From: Neocallimastix lanati (nom. inval.)
Lineage: Eukaryota > Neocallimastigomycota > Neocallimastigomycetes > Neocallimastigales > Neocallimastigaceae
Reading direction: 5' to 3'
Assembly (NCBI GenBank): GCA_016946835.1
Contig: JACVTC010000001.1
Location: 1,910,001-1,932,500 of the forward strand
Length of the DNA: 22,500 nucleotides
Positions 1,915 to 12,116 of the stretch are shown one piece after another. The notes under the pieces were generated by a model. It saw only the letters and a program-made list of their open reading frames with translations, was not told the origin of the DNA and searched no databases. The translations under genes and the position numbers were made by a program. Within the stretch, counting starts at the first letter, position 1, and the number at the start of each line of letters is the position of its first letter.

Positions 1915-4899
1915 TTATGATGAAACAGCATGCTTTTTACTATAACTTTTCCTAATGGAAGAATTGTCATTCATTTTGTTCGATGAAGATTTTGAATTGG
2001 ATCCACTATTTTTTTTAATCATATGATATTGTGGTATATGATGATGATGGCTGTTACTAACCTTATGAAGTGGTGGGTTCTGACCATGATAGACGCGTGG
2101 AACATATGGATTTGAGGAATATCCCGGATAACCTCCATTATAATTCATGGATTCATAGGAGGAAGGATTCATCTTATTATAGTAATGAGTAGTTGGCGCA
2201 TTAGGATGAGGATGAGCATTAGGAGGAGGCATTCTACCATCCGTACCTGTTCCATATCGATTGTATAGAGTGGTGGAAGAGGGATAACCTTGACCATTCA
2301 TATAGGCAGAGGCGGCATTGGGATCTGCGGATGGTCCGTAAACAGAGTAATTTCCAATGGAAGTCGTAGTAGATCCTCCATTGGATAAATGGTAGGCCAT
2401 TTCATTCATATTCATGCCCATATTCATACCCATGTTCATATCCATACCCATACCCATGCCCATGTTCATGTTCATGTTCATATTCATATTCATGTTCATG
2501 TTCATATTCATATTCATATCCATGCCCATGCCCATACCCATGCCCATATTCATTCCCATGTTCCTATTCATATCCATACCCATATTCACTGCCATATCTG
2601 GTCTTTTTAATAAGGAAGGATCTTCATATGGATAGGCTGGGGTAGTGGCTCCTAATGGTAATGAAAATGAATTACCGGTTAATCCTTCGGTACCTGTGGT
2701 ATAAAGAGAGGCTTTTTCCATCTCGGTAAGTACCATAGAGGTTGGTACAGATGTTGGTGTTGGTACTGAATGTGGTTGTGGTTGTGGTTGTTGTTGTTGT
2801 TGTTGTTGTGATTGCGATTGTGATTGTGATGGTTTATCTACTACTTCTGGATTCATAGTTGTAGTTTGATCTACAACAGTAGAGGAAGTTGTTGGAATAC
2901 CTGCACTAGTAGTACTAGTAGTAGTAGTTGCTGCCGTTGTAGTAGCTACAACAGCAATAGTAGTATTTGCTTCAGAAACTTGAATTGGAGTAGGATTAGA
3001 AAGATTATCCGTCATAATAATATCCGTATCTTTTGCTTTTGTAGCATTATTATTTTTAAGGATTTCTTCCTTCTTTACTTCTTCCTTAACTGAAGCGTCA
3101 CTTTTCACTTCCTTTTCTGGAGTAGTAATGGTAATATACGATGAATTCTCAATCTCTGTAGATGATTCAGCTGTATTAATTTTGGTATCCATGGAGGAGG
3201 AGGAAGAGGAAGAAGAAGAGGAGGAAGGTTCACCTTCATTTTTTAATTCTTTTATTGTTGATGGCTTACCAGTGTCAATGGTAGTATTTGAATTTGAGGA
3301 GAGGGTTACCTCTTTTGAACTACTTTCACCTTCTTCCTTTTTTTCTTCCAATTTAATACTATCTTTTAAAATTTCTTTTTTAGGAGATGATTTTTCTAAT
3401 GTATTATTGATTTCTATTTCATTTGATTTAGATTTTGAATTTTCTATTGGAGTAGTAGTTGTATTGACTCCTTCTACTTCATCTTTTGAAGTAGTAGTAG
3501 TAGTAGTAGTAGTTGTAGTAGGAGTATCATTATCACCATTTATTGTAATAATGGCAGTAGTGGTTGTTGAAGGGTTAGTACTTGTAGTAGTATTGGTGAT
3601 GGCGGCTGTTTTCATTTCTTCTTCTTTTTCTGCTTCGCTTTCAATAATAGTGGCTAATGGATAATCAATATCCATATCAGCTAAGTTAGTGGTAGTAGAG
3701 GAAGAGGTTTCTGTACTTAATGGAGTGGCTAACATAGGATGAACTGTACCATCCATACCATAGGGAATTGCATTTCCACCCATGCTCTGTGAAGCGTAAG
3801 GGTTCATAGGATCAAAATGAGTTGAATAAGCTGCAGAAGAATAATAATTTGGAGGAGGAGGTGGTGGTGGAGTAGTTAATAAGTTGGCATTTGTAACATC
3901 AGAAACGGGAAGAGGAACACCAACATTATAACCAGTACTACCATTAGCCGAACCAGGACCGCCAAAACCGTAAAAATCATTTTGGGAGAAAGGAGATAGA
4001 GTGGTATTAGGAGCTATTATAGTGTTACTATTACTATTTATGTTATTAGCAGTAGTAGTATTATTAATAGTAGTAGTTGTAGTAGTAGTAGTAGCAGCAG
4101 TACTATTAGTACTAGTAGCAGTAGAGGTAGTGTTAGTAGTATTGGTGGTAGTGGTCGTTGTTGCTGTTGTCTTTGTACCAGCAAGAGCAGTAGCAGAATT
4201 AGTAGTATTGGCAACTGTTGAATTTGGATTTGGATTTGGGTTTGGATTTGGGTTTGGGTTTAGGTTTAGGTTTAGAATGGGAGTAGGCGTTGTACCGTAG
4301 GCAATATGTGGTGGTGGTGGTGGTAAAGATGAAGGGCCACCACCAAAGGCACCGTAAGGAGGAGTTGATGGATTACCAGCCAATCCTCCAATGGCAGATC
4401 CACTAAAAGAACCTATTGGTATTGAAGAAGAATTGGTATTGGAAGAAGTGATGGGTGAGATGGAAGAAGTAGAAGTCGAAGTAGAAGTTGAAATAGAAGA
4501 AGAAGTAGTAGAAGTAGAAGTACAAGAAGAAGAAGATGAATCAGTAGTAGAAGAAACAGAGAGAGAAGGATCCGTAAAAGGAAGAGGGGAAGTAGGAGAT
4601 GGAGGGGCTTGATTAGGGTACATAAGAGGCTGATAAGGATTATTTTGAAAAGAGACCCCTTGACCCAAATTATAGTTACCCGATTGAAGGTATTTTAAAT
4701 TCAATAAATAGTGTTGAAATCTACTGAAGGTTTGTAAGAATTGTTTTGTTCCCGCTAATTCCACCAAAGTTTCAAACGTTTGAAAGAGATTTGAATCCAT
4801 TTGAATTCCCAACTCATAGACCAATTTGGCCAAACTTTCTATTTCAAGTACATCGGAAGTATGACGAGCATCTGAGAACATCTTTGGAGGTTCTAACAT
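1915..4899 (-). CDS. Low-complexity, probably disordered protein (994 aa) with Met-x-Met and Pro-Asn repeats; family not recognised
   Basis: An uninterrupted 994-codon frame on the minus strand, from ATG at 4899 to TAA at 1915-1917. Residues about 15-72 look folded and helical (LEIESLAKLVYEL, then FQTFETLVELAG and a Leu/Phe/Tyr-rich helix ending LKYLQ). After that come a Pro/Ser/Thr region (98-160), Pro-Asn dipeptides (209-226), Thr/Asn runs (231-300), poly-Pro (344-350), a Thr10 run (461-470), an acidic/Lys-rich stretch (480-625), poly-Ser (559-569), Ser-Gln then poly-Gln (691-707), a Met-x-Met tract (773-834), a Gly/Tyr/Asn/Pro-rich region (840-945) and a basic Lys/Ser/His tail. There is no signal peptide, membrane segment or catalytic motif. 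The first ATG is preferred because the helical domain starts soon after it and an A-rich leader precedes it. The architecture resembles nuclear or RNA-associated scaffold proteins, but that is only inference; no function is assigned. Opposite-strand and shifted frames over it are shadows of the repeats. Confidence 0.88.
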   Translation of the reverse strand: MLEPPKMFSDARHTSDVLEIESLAKLVYELGIQMDSNLFQTFETLVELAGTKQFLQTFSRFQHYLLNLKYLQSGNYNLGQGVSFQNNPYQPLMYPNQAPPSPTSPLPFTDPSLSVSSTTDSSSSSCTSTSTTSSSISTSTSTSTSSISPITSSNTNSSSIPIGSFSGSAIGGLAGNPSTPPYGAFGGGPSSLPPPPPHIAYGTTPTPILNLNLNPNPNPNPNPNPNSTVANTTNSATALAGTKTTATTTTTTNTTNTTSTATSTNSTAATTTTTTTTINNTTTANNINSNSNTIIAPNTTLSPFSQNDFYGFGGPGSANGSTGYNVGVPLPVSDVTNANLLTTPPPPPPPNYYSSAAYSTHFDPMNPYASQSMGGNAIPYGMDGTVHPMLATPLSTETSSSTTTNLADMDIDYPLATIIESEAEKEEEMKTAAITNTTTSTNPSTTTTAIITINGDNDTPTTTTTTTTTTSKDEVEGVNTTTTPIENSKSKSNEIEINNTLEKSSPKKEILKDSIKLEEKKEEGESSSKEVTLSSNSNTTIDTGKPSTIKELKNEGEPSSSSSSSSSSSMDTKINTAESSTEIENSSYITITTPEKEVKSDASVKEEVKKEEILKNNNATKAKDTDIIMTDNLSNPTPIQVSEANTTIAVVATTTAATTTTSTTSAGIPTTSSTVVDQTTTMNPEVVDKPSQSQSQSQQQQQQQPQPQPHSVPTPTSVPTSMVLTEMEKASLYTTGTEGLTGNSFSLPLGATTPAYPYEDPSLLKRPDMAVNMGMDMNRNMGMNMGMGMGMGMDMNMNMNMNMNMNMNMNMNMGMGMGMDMNMGMNMGMNMNEMAYHLSNGGSTTTSIGNYSVYGPSADPNAASAYMNGQGYPSSTTLYNRYGTGTDGRMPPPNAHPHPNAPTTHYYNKMNPSSYESMNYNGGYPGYSSNPYVPRVYHGQNPPLHKVSNSHHHHIPQYHMIKKNSGSNSKSSSNKMNDNSSIRKSYSKKHAVSS
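2398..2595 (-). repeat. Hexanucleotide array encoding ~26 alternating methionines
   Basis: On the minus strand ATG recurs every six bases, with AAT, AAC, GGC, GGT or GAT codons between. From residue 781 to 831 every second residue is Met (26 in strict alternation), with a flanking Met-Gly-Met-Asp-Met at 773-777. The x position is Asn in the middle and Gly or Asp at the edges. This looks like expansion of a 6-bp unit, with later point changes confined largely to the x codon. On the plus strand the same array reads as His-x repeats, which is a shadow. Confidence 0.9.
4222..4275 (-). repeat. Hexanucleotide array encoding Pro-Asn and Leu-Asn dipeptides
   Basis: Nine TTTGGR/TTTAGG units read on the plus strand, encoding Leu-Asn (x3) then Pro-Asn (x6) on the minus strand at residues 209-226. 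The three TTTAGG units at the right end resemble telomere-type repeats by chance of codon choice. Confidence 0.85.
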
Positions 4900-11691: not shown

Positions 11692-11706
11692 GAGAAAATT
11701 AATAAA
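11692..11706. repeat. Target-site duplication, left copy
   Basis: GAGAAAATTAATAAA, identical to the copy at 12102-12116. A 32-base T-run ends 13 bp before it. Confidence 0.85.
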
Positions 11707-12064
11707 CATAGACTTGCACATATGGGTACCCATCTCCCATATGGCCATACAGTTATTAATTAACTATATGGTGATGAGTTATTGGCATACTGTAACAGCT
11801 TCGCTGCTCTCAATCGTCGTTATGCATTCCTAACGTTCCTACATATATCTCTATTGACCACGAGCATCAGAACGGAATCATTAACACCTCCCTAGTGGGT
11901 GTAATTGGCGATTGGAAATTTTACAATCATCAAGGTCTATGCTTCAATTCAAAGCGTAGTGTCAGGGTTGGGTGAAATAATCATTTAAGGCTTTCCCTTA
12001 AATGCCTTATGAATATCACGTGTGGTCTCATGATATCCCAGGATAGAAACCTCATCCGATTATT

Positions 12065-12092
12065 TGGTGCCATGCCGAGGATTCGAACCCCT
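12065..12092 (-). pseudogene. tRNA 3'-half remnant (T-arm, acceptor strand, CCA) in the retroposon
   Basis: Read on the minus strand the 28 bases divide exactly as a tRNA end: T-stem AGGGG, T-loop TTCGAAT, T-stem CCTCG, 7-base acceptor strand GCATGGC, discriminator A, CCA. Four of five T-stem pairs form (three Watson-Crick and one G-T); A49-G65 does not. The B-box GGTTCGAATCC lies at 12079-12089. Only 9 bases of the element precede the T-arm, so the anticodon arm, D-arm and A-box are absent and tRNA identity cannot be read. CCA is added after transcription in eukaryotes, so its presence in DNA points to copying from mature tRNA or a tRNA-like RNA. Confidence 0.75.
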
Positions 12093-12101
12093 CCCTCTAC
12101 A

Positions 12102-12116
12102 GAGAAAATTAATAAA
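12102..12116. repeat. Target-site duplication, right copy
   Basis: GAGAAAATTAATAAA, abutting the last element base (12101). Normal AT-rich spacer resumes straight after it. Confidence 0.85.

Follow-up and report, generated by a model that had tools for sequence, protein, structure and literature searches.

The locus at positions 11692 to 12116 raises the question of how a G+C-rich block carrying half a tRNA came to stand between exact repeats in AT-rich spacer DNA. The window, meaning the whole stretch of 22,500 nucleotides that was analyzed, spans positions 1910001-1932500 of contig C1 in the genome of the gut fungus Neocallimastix lanati (199,045,447 bases in 762 contigs). A preliminary description of this DNA had proposed a SINE-like retroposon of about 40% G+C, lying on the minus strand, flanked by an exact 15-bp duplication and containing a tRNA 3′ half with CCA. 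These observations hold. The 395-bp block at 11707-12101 has a G+C content of 41.8%, compared with 11.4% and 12.3% in the adjoining 2 kb on its two sides, and with both strands of the window considered, the repeat GAGAAAATTAATAAA has just two occurrences, at 11692 and at 12102. The tRNA 3′ half with CCA is seen on the minus strand, and this orientation proved right. A direct repeat of at least 15 bp arose in 1 of 1077 shuffled flank pairs, placing the 15-bp duplication beyond chance. It is very probable that the block is a 5′-truncated, ageing copy of a tRNA-derived SINE that would spread through RNA polymerase III (Pol III) transcription and LINE-driven, target-primed insertion. The features of the locus are as follows:

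11692..11706, no strand: target-site duplication on the 3′ side of the element, TTTATTAATTTTCTC in the minus-strand sense; exact over 15 bp, with two occurrences in the window
11707..12101, minus strand: 5′-truncated SINE copy of 395 bp with its 3′ end (CTATG) at 11707, from alignment to the reference copy L021
12065..12101, minus strand: remnant of the tRNA-like head, comprising the 3′ half, the B box GGTTCGAATCC, and CCA; in L021, where the head is complete, it matches RF00005
11707..11770, minus strand: 3′ end, where the reference copy is predicted to form two hairpins, followed by CAAGTCTATG as the junction to the T tail, which is lost or minimal here; from pattern search and from folding the final 110 nt of the reference
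12102..12116, no strand: target-site duplication on the 5′ (truncated) side of the element, exact over 15 bp

The full-length element is represented by L021, a copy of 442 nt in which a tRNA-like head (positions 1-72) is followed by CCA, a body of about 365 nt, and the end CAAGTCTATG, after which T's follow. The head matches the tRNA family RF00005 with 38.0 bits, where the cut-off is 29 (Rfam). Judged against the consensus for the two Pol III promoter boxes, L021 has the A box TGGTCCAGTCG at position 8 and the B box GGTTCGAATCC at position 51, and exact A and B boxes occur in 37 of the 40 full-length copies, so that full-length copies restore the A box as the preliminary description had anticipated. 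The anticodon loop of the head is 6 nt long and ARAGORN reads a two-letter anticodon only; thus, the SINE head is a relic of a tRNA. The element begins with GCCATG and ends with CTATG, and two hairpins are predicted near the 3′ end when the last 110 nt of L021 are folded. The longest stop-free stretch in L021 is 71 codons, which indicates that the element is non-coding, as had been claimed for the block, and its length falls within the SINE range of about 100-700 bp. Internal TTTT is absent from L021 and present in 4 of 55 copies. Since 35% of first-order Markov sequences also lack this motif, its absence from L021 is not remarkable.

Aligned to L021, the window copy starts about 38 nt into the element, inside the tRNA-like head, with the B box kept and the A box lost. 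Thus, of the two boundaries first proposed for the block, 11707 is the real 3′ end of the family, whereas 12101 is a point of truncation and not a 5′ end. The identity of the two copies is 91.9% with gaps counted, with 3.85% mismatches and four alignment gaps, and among 55 insertions only L051 carries more mismatches to L021 than the window copy does. In the window copy, the T tail does not extend beyond the TTT that opens the duplication. The window copy is an older, ageing, 5′-truncated member and a poor representative of the SINE family, which is why it looked like a tailless half tRNA. No tRNA genes and no Rfam families at gathering score were called in the window, the lack of an Rfam match presumably being due to the cut tRNA head. 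The block gave matches to a plastid 3′UTR family and a nematode snoRNA at a relaxed threshold; these lie below their own cut-offs and are not believed. The predicted RNA fold of the whole block is mildly better than that of shuffled sequences (z of -2.17 and -1.90). Elsewhere in the window, a 994-aa frame on the minus strand (1915-4899) has no Pfam match and, except at its N-terminus, is of low complexity, with Thr, Ser, and Asn and GMNM repeats.

The block is not single-copy; a single copy was the outcome that the preliminary description had named as speaking against a retroposon. A 40-nt pattern across the head/body junction, with up to three mismatches allowed, matches 296 places in the genome (157 + 139), and a 37-nt pattern of the 3′ end matches 328 (167 + 161) at the same tolerance; the reversed pattern gave 0 matches in each case. 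Of 574 candidates from a BLAST search of the block against the genome, the best 40 comprise the window copy and a further 39 copies that are 89-90% identical to it. Neither viral contigs nor bacterial and archaeal genome contigs contained a match to exact SINE patterns (0 in each set).

Sixty loci were aligned, representing 55 unique insertions, as five places occurred twice. Half of them (L001-L030) are the 30 best BLAST matches, a sample biased toward window-like copies, and the other half (L033-L062) are the first 30 places of the 3′-end pattern in contig order, all with 0 mismatches to that pattern. The alignment extends to the 3′ end in 60/60 loci, half of which were picked by that end, while the 5′ end is reached in 40 of the 55 insertions; the remaining 15 are 5′-truncated, as are 10 of 30 in the positional sample. 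Zero mismatches to L021 were found in 18/55 copies, L021 counted (7/30 in the positional sample), and at most 1.36% mismatches in 52/55. Many near-identical copies therefore exist, but no age profile of the family follows, because the BLAST and positional samples both favor well-kept copies. In the positional sample, three of the 10 copies with a truncation end at reference position ~119 (simulated p 0.013, post hoc), which is no more than suggestive of a truncation hot spot or a possible pause in reverse transcription. A predicted hairpin, read by eye from the fold, has the edge of its loop at position ~119.

The idea that the block belongs to a more extended gene or LTR unit was considered and rejected, as no flanking sequence common to the copies is seen in the displayed part of the alignment of L001-L030 or in the table of 60 loci. 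Among the other repeats in the flanks of the copies, neither a further SINE copy nor another element with the 3′ end of the SINE was seen. One of these repeats, common to L018:1978-2681, L085:2342-3074, and L046:1-136 at 84-96% identity, is richer in G+C than its surroundings. At two places, head and 3′-end patterns lie on the same strand at a distance, 1.7 kb apart on C13 (1438898 and 1440583) and 0.9 kb apart on C40 (93536 and 94456). These pairs are perhaps copies split by another insertion, or paired partial copies.

Direct repeats of at least 11 bp, with one unit at the 5′ junction and the other following the tail, were detected in 46 of the 55 insertions, with actual lengths of 12-18 bp and a mode of 15, compared with 15 of 1077 pairs when flanks were shuffled among copies. 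By sample, the duplication is found in 22/30 positional and 28/30 BLAST loci. The nine insertions in which no duplication of at least 11 bp is seen are L004, L013, L034, L040, L048, L051, L054, L057, and L062, of which L013 shows, on inspection by eye, a repeat of 11 bp that contains a single mismatch. The forecast of many copies with shared ends and differing duplications was thus borne out at the 11707 end and in the duplications, but not at 12101, which is not a shared 5′ end. Dispersed copies, a tRNA-like head, a common 3′ end, and duplications together support the original reading of the block as one of a SINE-like retroposon family.

The preliminary description was correct that there is no poly(A) tail; the family instead carries a poly(T) tail. 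In the 46 insertions with a duplication, the tail, defined as the letters between CTATG and the duplication, is 0-37 long and amounts to 587 T, 13 G, and 1 A. The first letter of the duplication is T in 43/46 insertions against 41% expected (binomial tail 9e-14), and the duplication opens with two or more T in 34/46 against 18% expected. Because the finder counts adjoining T's as part of the duplication, these expectations were taken from flank positions that follow a letter other than T. Since tails reach 37 and the target offers at most 6 leading T's, the target did not supply the long tails. Tail length is also not inherited unchanged, as tails range from 2 to 27 among the 17 copies that have a clear duplication and agree with L021 without mismatch. 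As far as sequence can tell, this is consistent with a SINE RNA that ends in U, finds its primer in an A-tract of the nicked strand, and has its tail lengthened at or before reverse transcription. Lengthening by slippage and lengthening by uridylation would both fit and cannot be told apart from these letters.

Integrase-mediated insertion produces duplications of 4-6 bp, and LTRs begin with TG and end with CA. This background bears on a different reading of the block as a solo LTR or an LTR-type non-autonomous element, in which the plus-strand TGGTGCCATGCCGAGGATTCGAACC would serve as a primer-binding site by pairing with the 3′ end of a tRNA. The stretch does open with the complement of CCA, and LTR-type elements are present in the genome, with an integrase domain above its cut-off in L043 and a weaker one in L017. 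However, the duplications of the family are 12-18 bp rather than 4-6 bp, its ends are GCCATG... and ...CTATG rather than TG...CA, and full-length copies contain the whole 72-nt tRNA head and not an 18-nt primer site. In addition, one end of the element bears a variable T tail, and the opposite end is subject to truncation. Helenus and Ajax have been described as non-autonomous LTR elements that contain small-RNA-like sequences (PMC10886601), but for this family the primer-binding-site reading is refuted by the length of the duplications and the variable T tail, and we consider it extremely improbable.

The window copy alone, with half a tRNA and its CCA, no tail, and a 15-bp duplication, would also fit a one-off chimeric, tailless retropseudogene, formed when a reverse transcript switched onto a mature tRNA and the product was inserted once. 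Tailless tRNA retropseudogenes are described in a 2013 review (PMC3747384). This explanation is refuted for the window copy by copy number, as the chimera recurs with a complete head, 40 of 55 insertions being full length and the junction pattern occurring at 296 places; it is therefore given next to no weight. A template switch of this kind may nevertheless have founded the family, with the window copy as a descendant.

The SINE reading remains the preferred one, and a path can be proposed for it. Pol III would transcribe the SINE from its tRNA-like head, the transcript starting at GCCATGTTGG. In the reference copy, which is without internal TTTT, the transcript would for that reason run into the T tail, probably ending in U's. 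The endonuclease/reverse transcriptase of a resident LINE would nick AT-rich DNA, and the exposed A-tract would pair with the U tail and thereby prime reverse transcription. Slippage or uridylation would lengthen the tail, and a staggered second-strand cut would leave the duplication. An early stop of reverse transcription, as in the window copy, would cost the element its head.

Candidate components of such machinery are present in the genome. The endonuclease domain PF14529 has 78 matches among the best 150 of 485 candidates; it also matches in 3 of 14 prokaryote controls, above its cut-off in 1. For the reverse transcriptase domain RVT_1, the best 150 of 5028 candidates were scored, a set that takes LINE and LTR types together. 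One SINE copy, L013 (contig C1, beside 3924794-3925215), sits in the frame of a non-LTR reverse transcriptase with an RVT_1 score of 106.3 bits, and the sequence of this frame matches proteins of solved structure that include R2 and LINE-1. A long Asp-Asn repeat lies inside the matched domain, and a zinc-finger-like stretch of the form CPICH...C is found on the far side of the SINE.

The SINE may be mobilized by a relaxed L1-like LINE that needs just a run of U at the 3′ end, instead of a stringent partner sharing the CAAGTCTATG end; we regard this as plausible, if somewhat short of probable. The 15-nt pattern of the 3′ tip is no commoner than the SINE itself, matching exactly at 302 places compared with 328 for the 3′-end pattern with up to three mismatches. 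Among the first 100 tip places listed, 81 have a perfect 3′-end pattern, one (C18) has a head at the usual distance, one (C13) has a head 1.7 kb upstream, and 17 have neither among the matches listed; these 17 could represent SINEs that have diverged or been truncated, or sequences of another kind. The partner LINE with this 3′ end that the preliminary description had suggested looking for was not found: no other element sharing the 3′ end of the SINE was detected in the 313,817 letters around the loci read, where AGTCTATG occurs 66 times (some places twice), 61 of these being SINE ends and the other 5 having no T tail after them. Against a relaxed partner stands the constant 3′ end with its two predicted hairpins, a property of stringently recognized SINEs (PMC3747384), although this same end had served in part to select the copies.

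Plants, too, have T-tailed SINEs, possibly moved by LINEs that recognize a poly(U) RNA end, which had not yet been identified according to a 2013 review (PMC3747384). It is possible, although we hold the idea with some doubt, that the present family represents a poly(T) SINE with recent activity, its RNA ending in a U tract that pairs with nicked A-tracts and its partner being a new kind of LINE recognizing poly(U) ends. If so, this partner would be the LINE postulated for the T-tailed SINEs of plants and not identified as of that review (PMC3747384), most spacers of so AT-rich a genome would offer the A-tracts, and the T tail would act both as a terminator for Pol III and as the sequence used in priming.

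The tRNA from which the head derives was sought among 63 tRNA matches scored from 9278 candidates; all 30 loci read hold tRNA-Arg(TCT), which is unlike the head by eye. By eye only, the head loop GGTCAC is reminiscent of tRNA-Asp(GTC). At many of these 30 loci, a tRNA-Asn(GTT) or tRNA-Thr(TGT) gene adjoins tRNA-Arg(TCT). The tRNA-Arg genes form a dispersed array: on contig C555, between about 170,700 and 399,100 (in part L087-L092), 34 of the 63 scored matches lie within 228 kb, 31 of them at equal score, and the six C555 loci read are tRNA-Arg(TCT) genes.

The host genome contains fungal-type dockerin modules (PF02013, CBM_10), the best 150 of 1440 candidates each scoring above the curated cut-off, with 0 in 14 prokaryote control genomes. 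Many dockerins together with very AT-rich spacers point to Neocallimastigomycota. No title in the open-access literature searched concerns a SINE of this phylum; subscription papers and Repbase lay outside the search, and the family may be listed there. One paper on RNAi in a gut fungus discusses transposons, but not those of that fungus itself. The present elements probably form a new SINE family of a known, tRNA-derived kind, set apart by its T tail and T-biased target sites. These two properties make it possible to check, in one genome, which machinery copies T-ended SINEs, and with many near-identical copies, transcription and mobilization should be testable. For annotation, a family of some 300 copies should be masked.

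Magnaporthe, Fusarium, Blumeria, and Aspergillus all belong to the Ascomycota. The SINEs described from them, namely Mg-SINE, Foxy, SINE2-1_BG, and AfuSINE2, respectively, are also tRNA-derived, and AfuSINE2 resembles the gut-fungus SINE in having CCA after the tRNA region and short duplications (PMC5063351). However, the same source gives the SINEs of A. fumigatus as very low in copy number and divergent and Mg-SINE as having about 100 copies (PMC5063351), whereas the gut-fungus SINE occupies about 300 places, with many near-identical copies and a T tail. Classical tRNA SINEs, as characterized in the 2013 review, have the same modular head, body, and 3′ end and the same target-primed insertion (PMC3747384). 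Their 3′ end is held in common with a LINE, while the gut-fungus SINE has a T tail, and no LINE with its end was found in the sequence searched. Compared by description rather than by sequence, there is a likeness in how the elements end, as the p-SINEs and Au-like SINEs of plants also finish in poly(T) or a short T stretch (PMC3747384). In contrast to these plant elements, the SINE described here resides in a gut fungus and bears tails of up to 37 T before the duplication.
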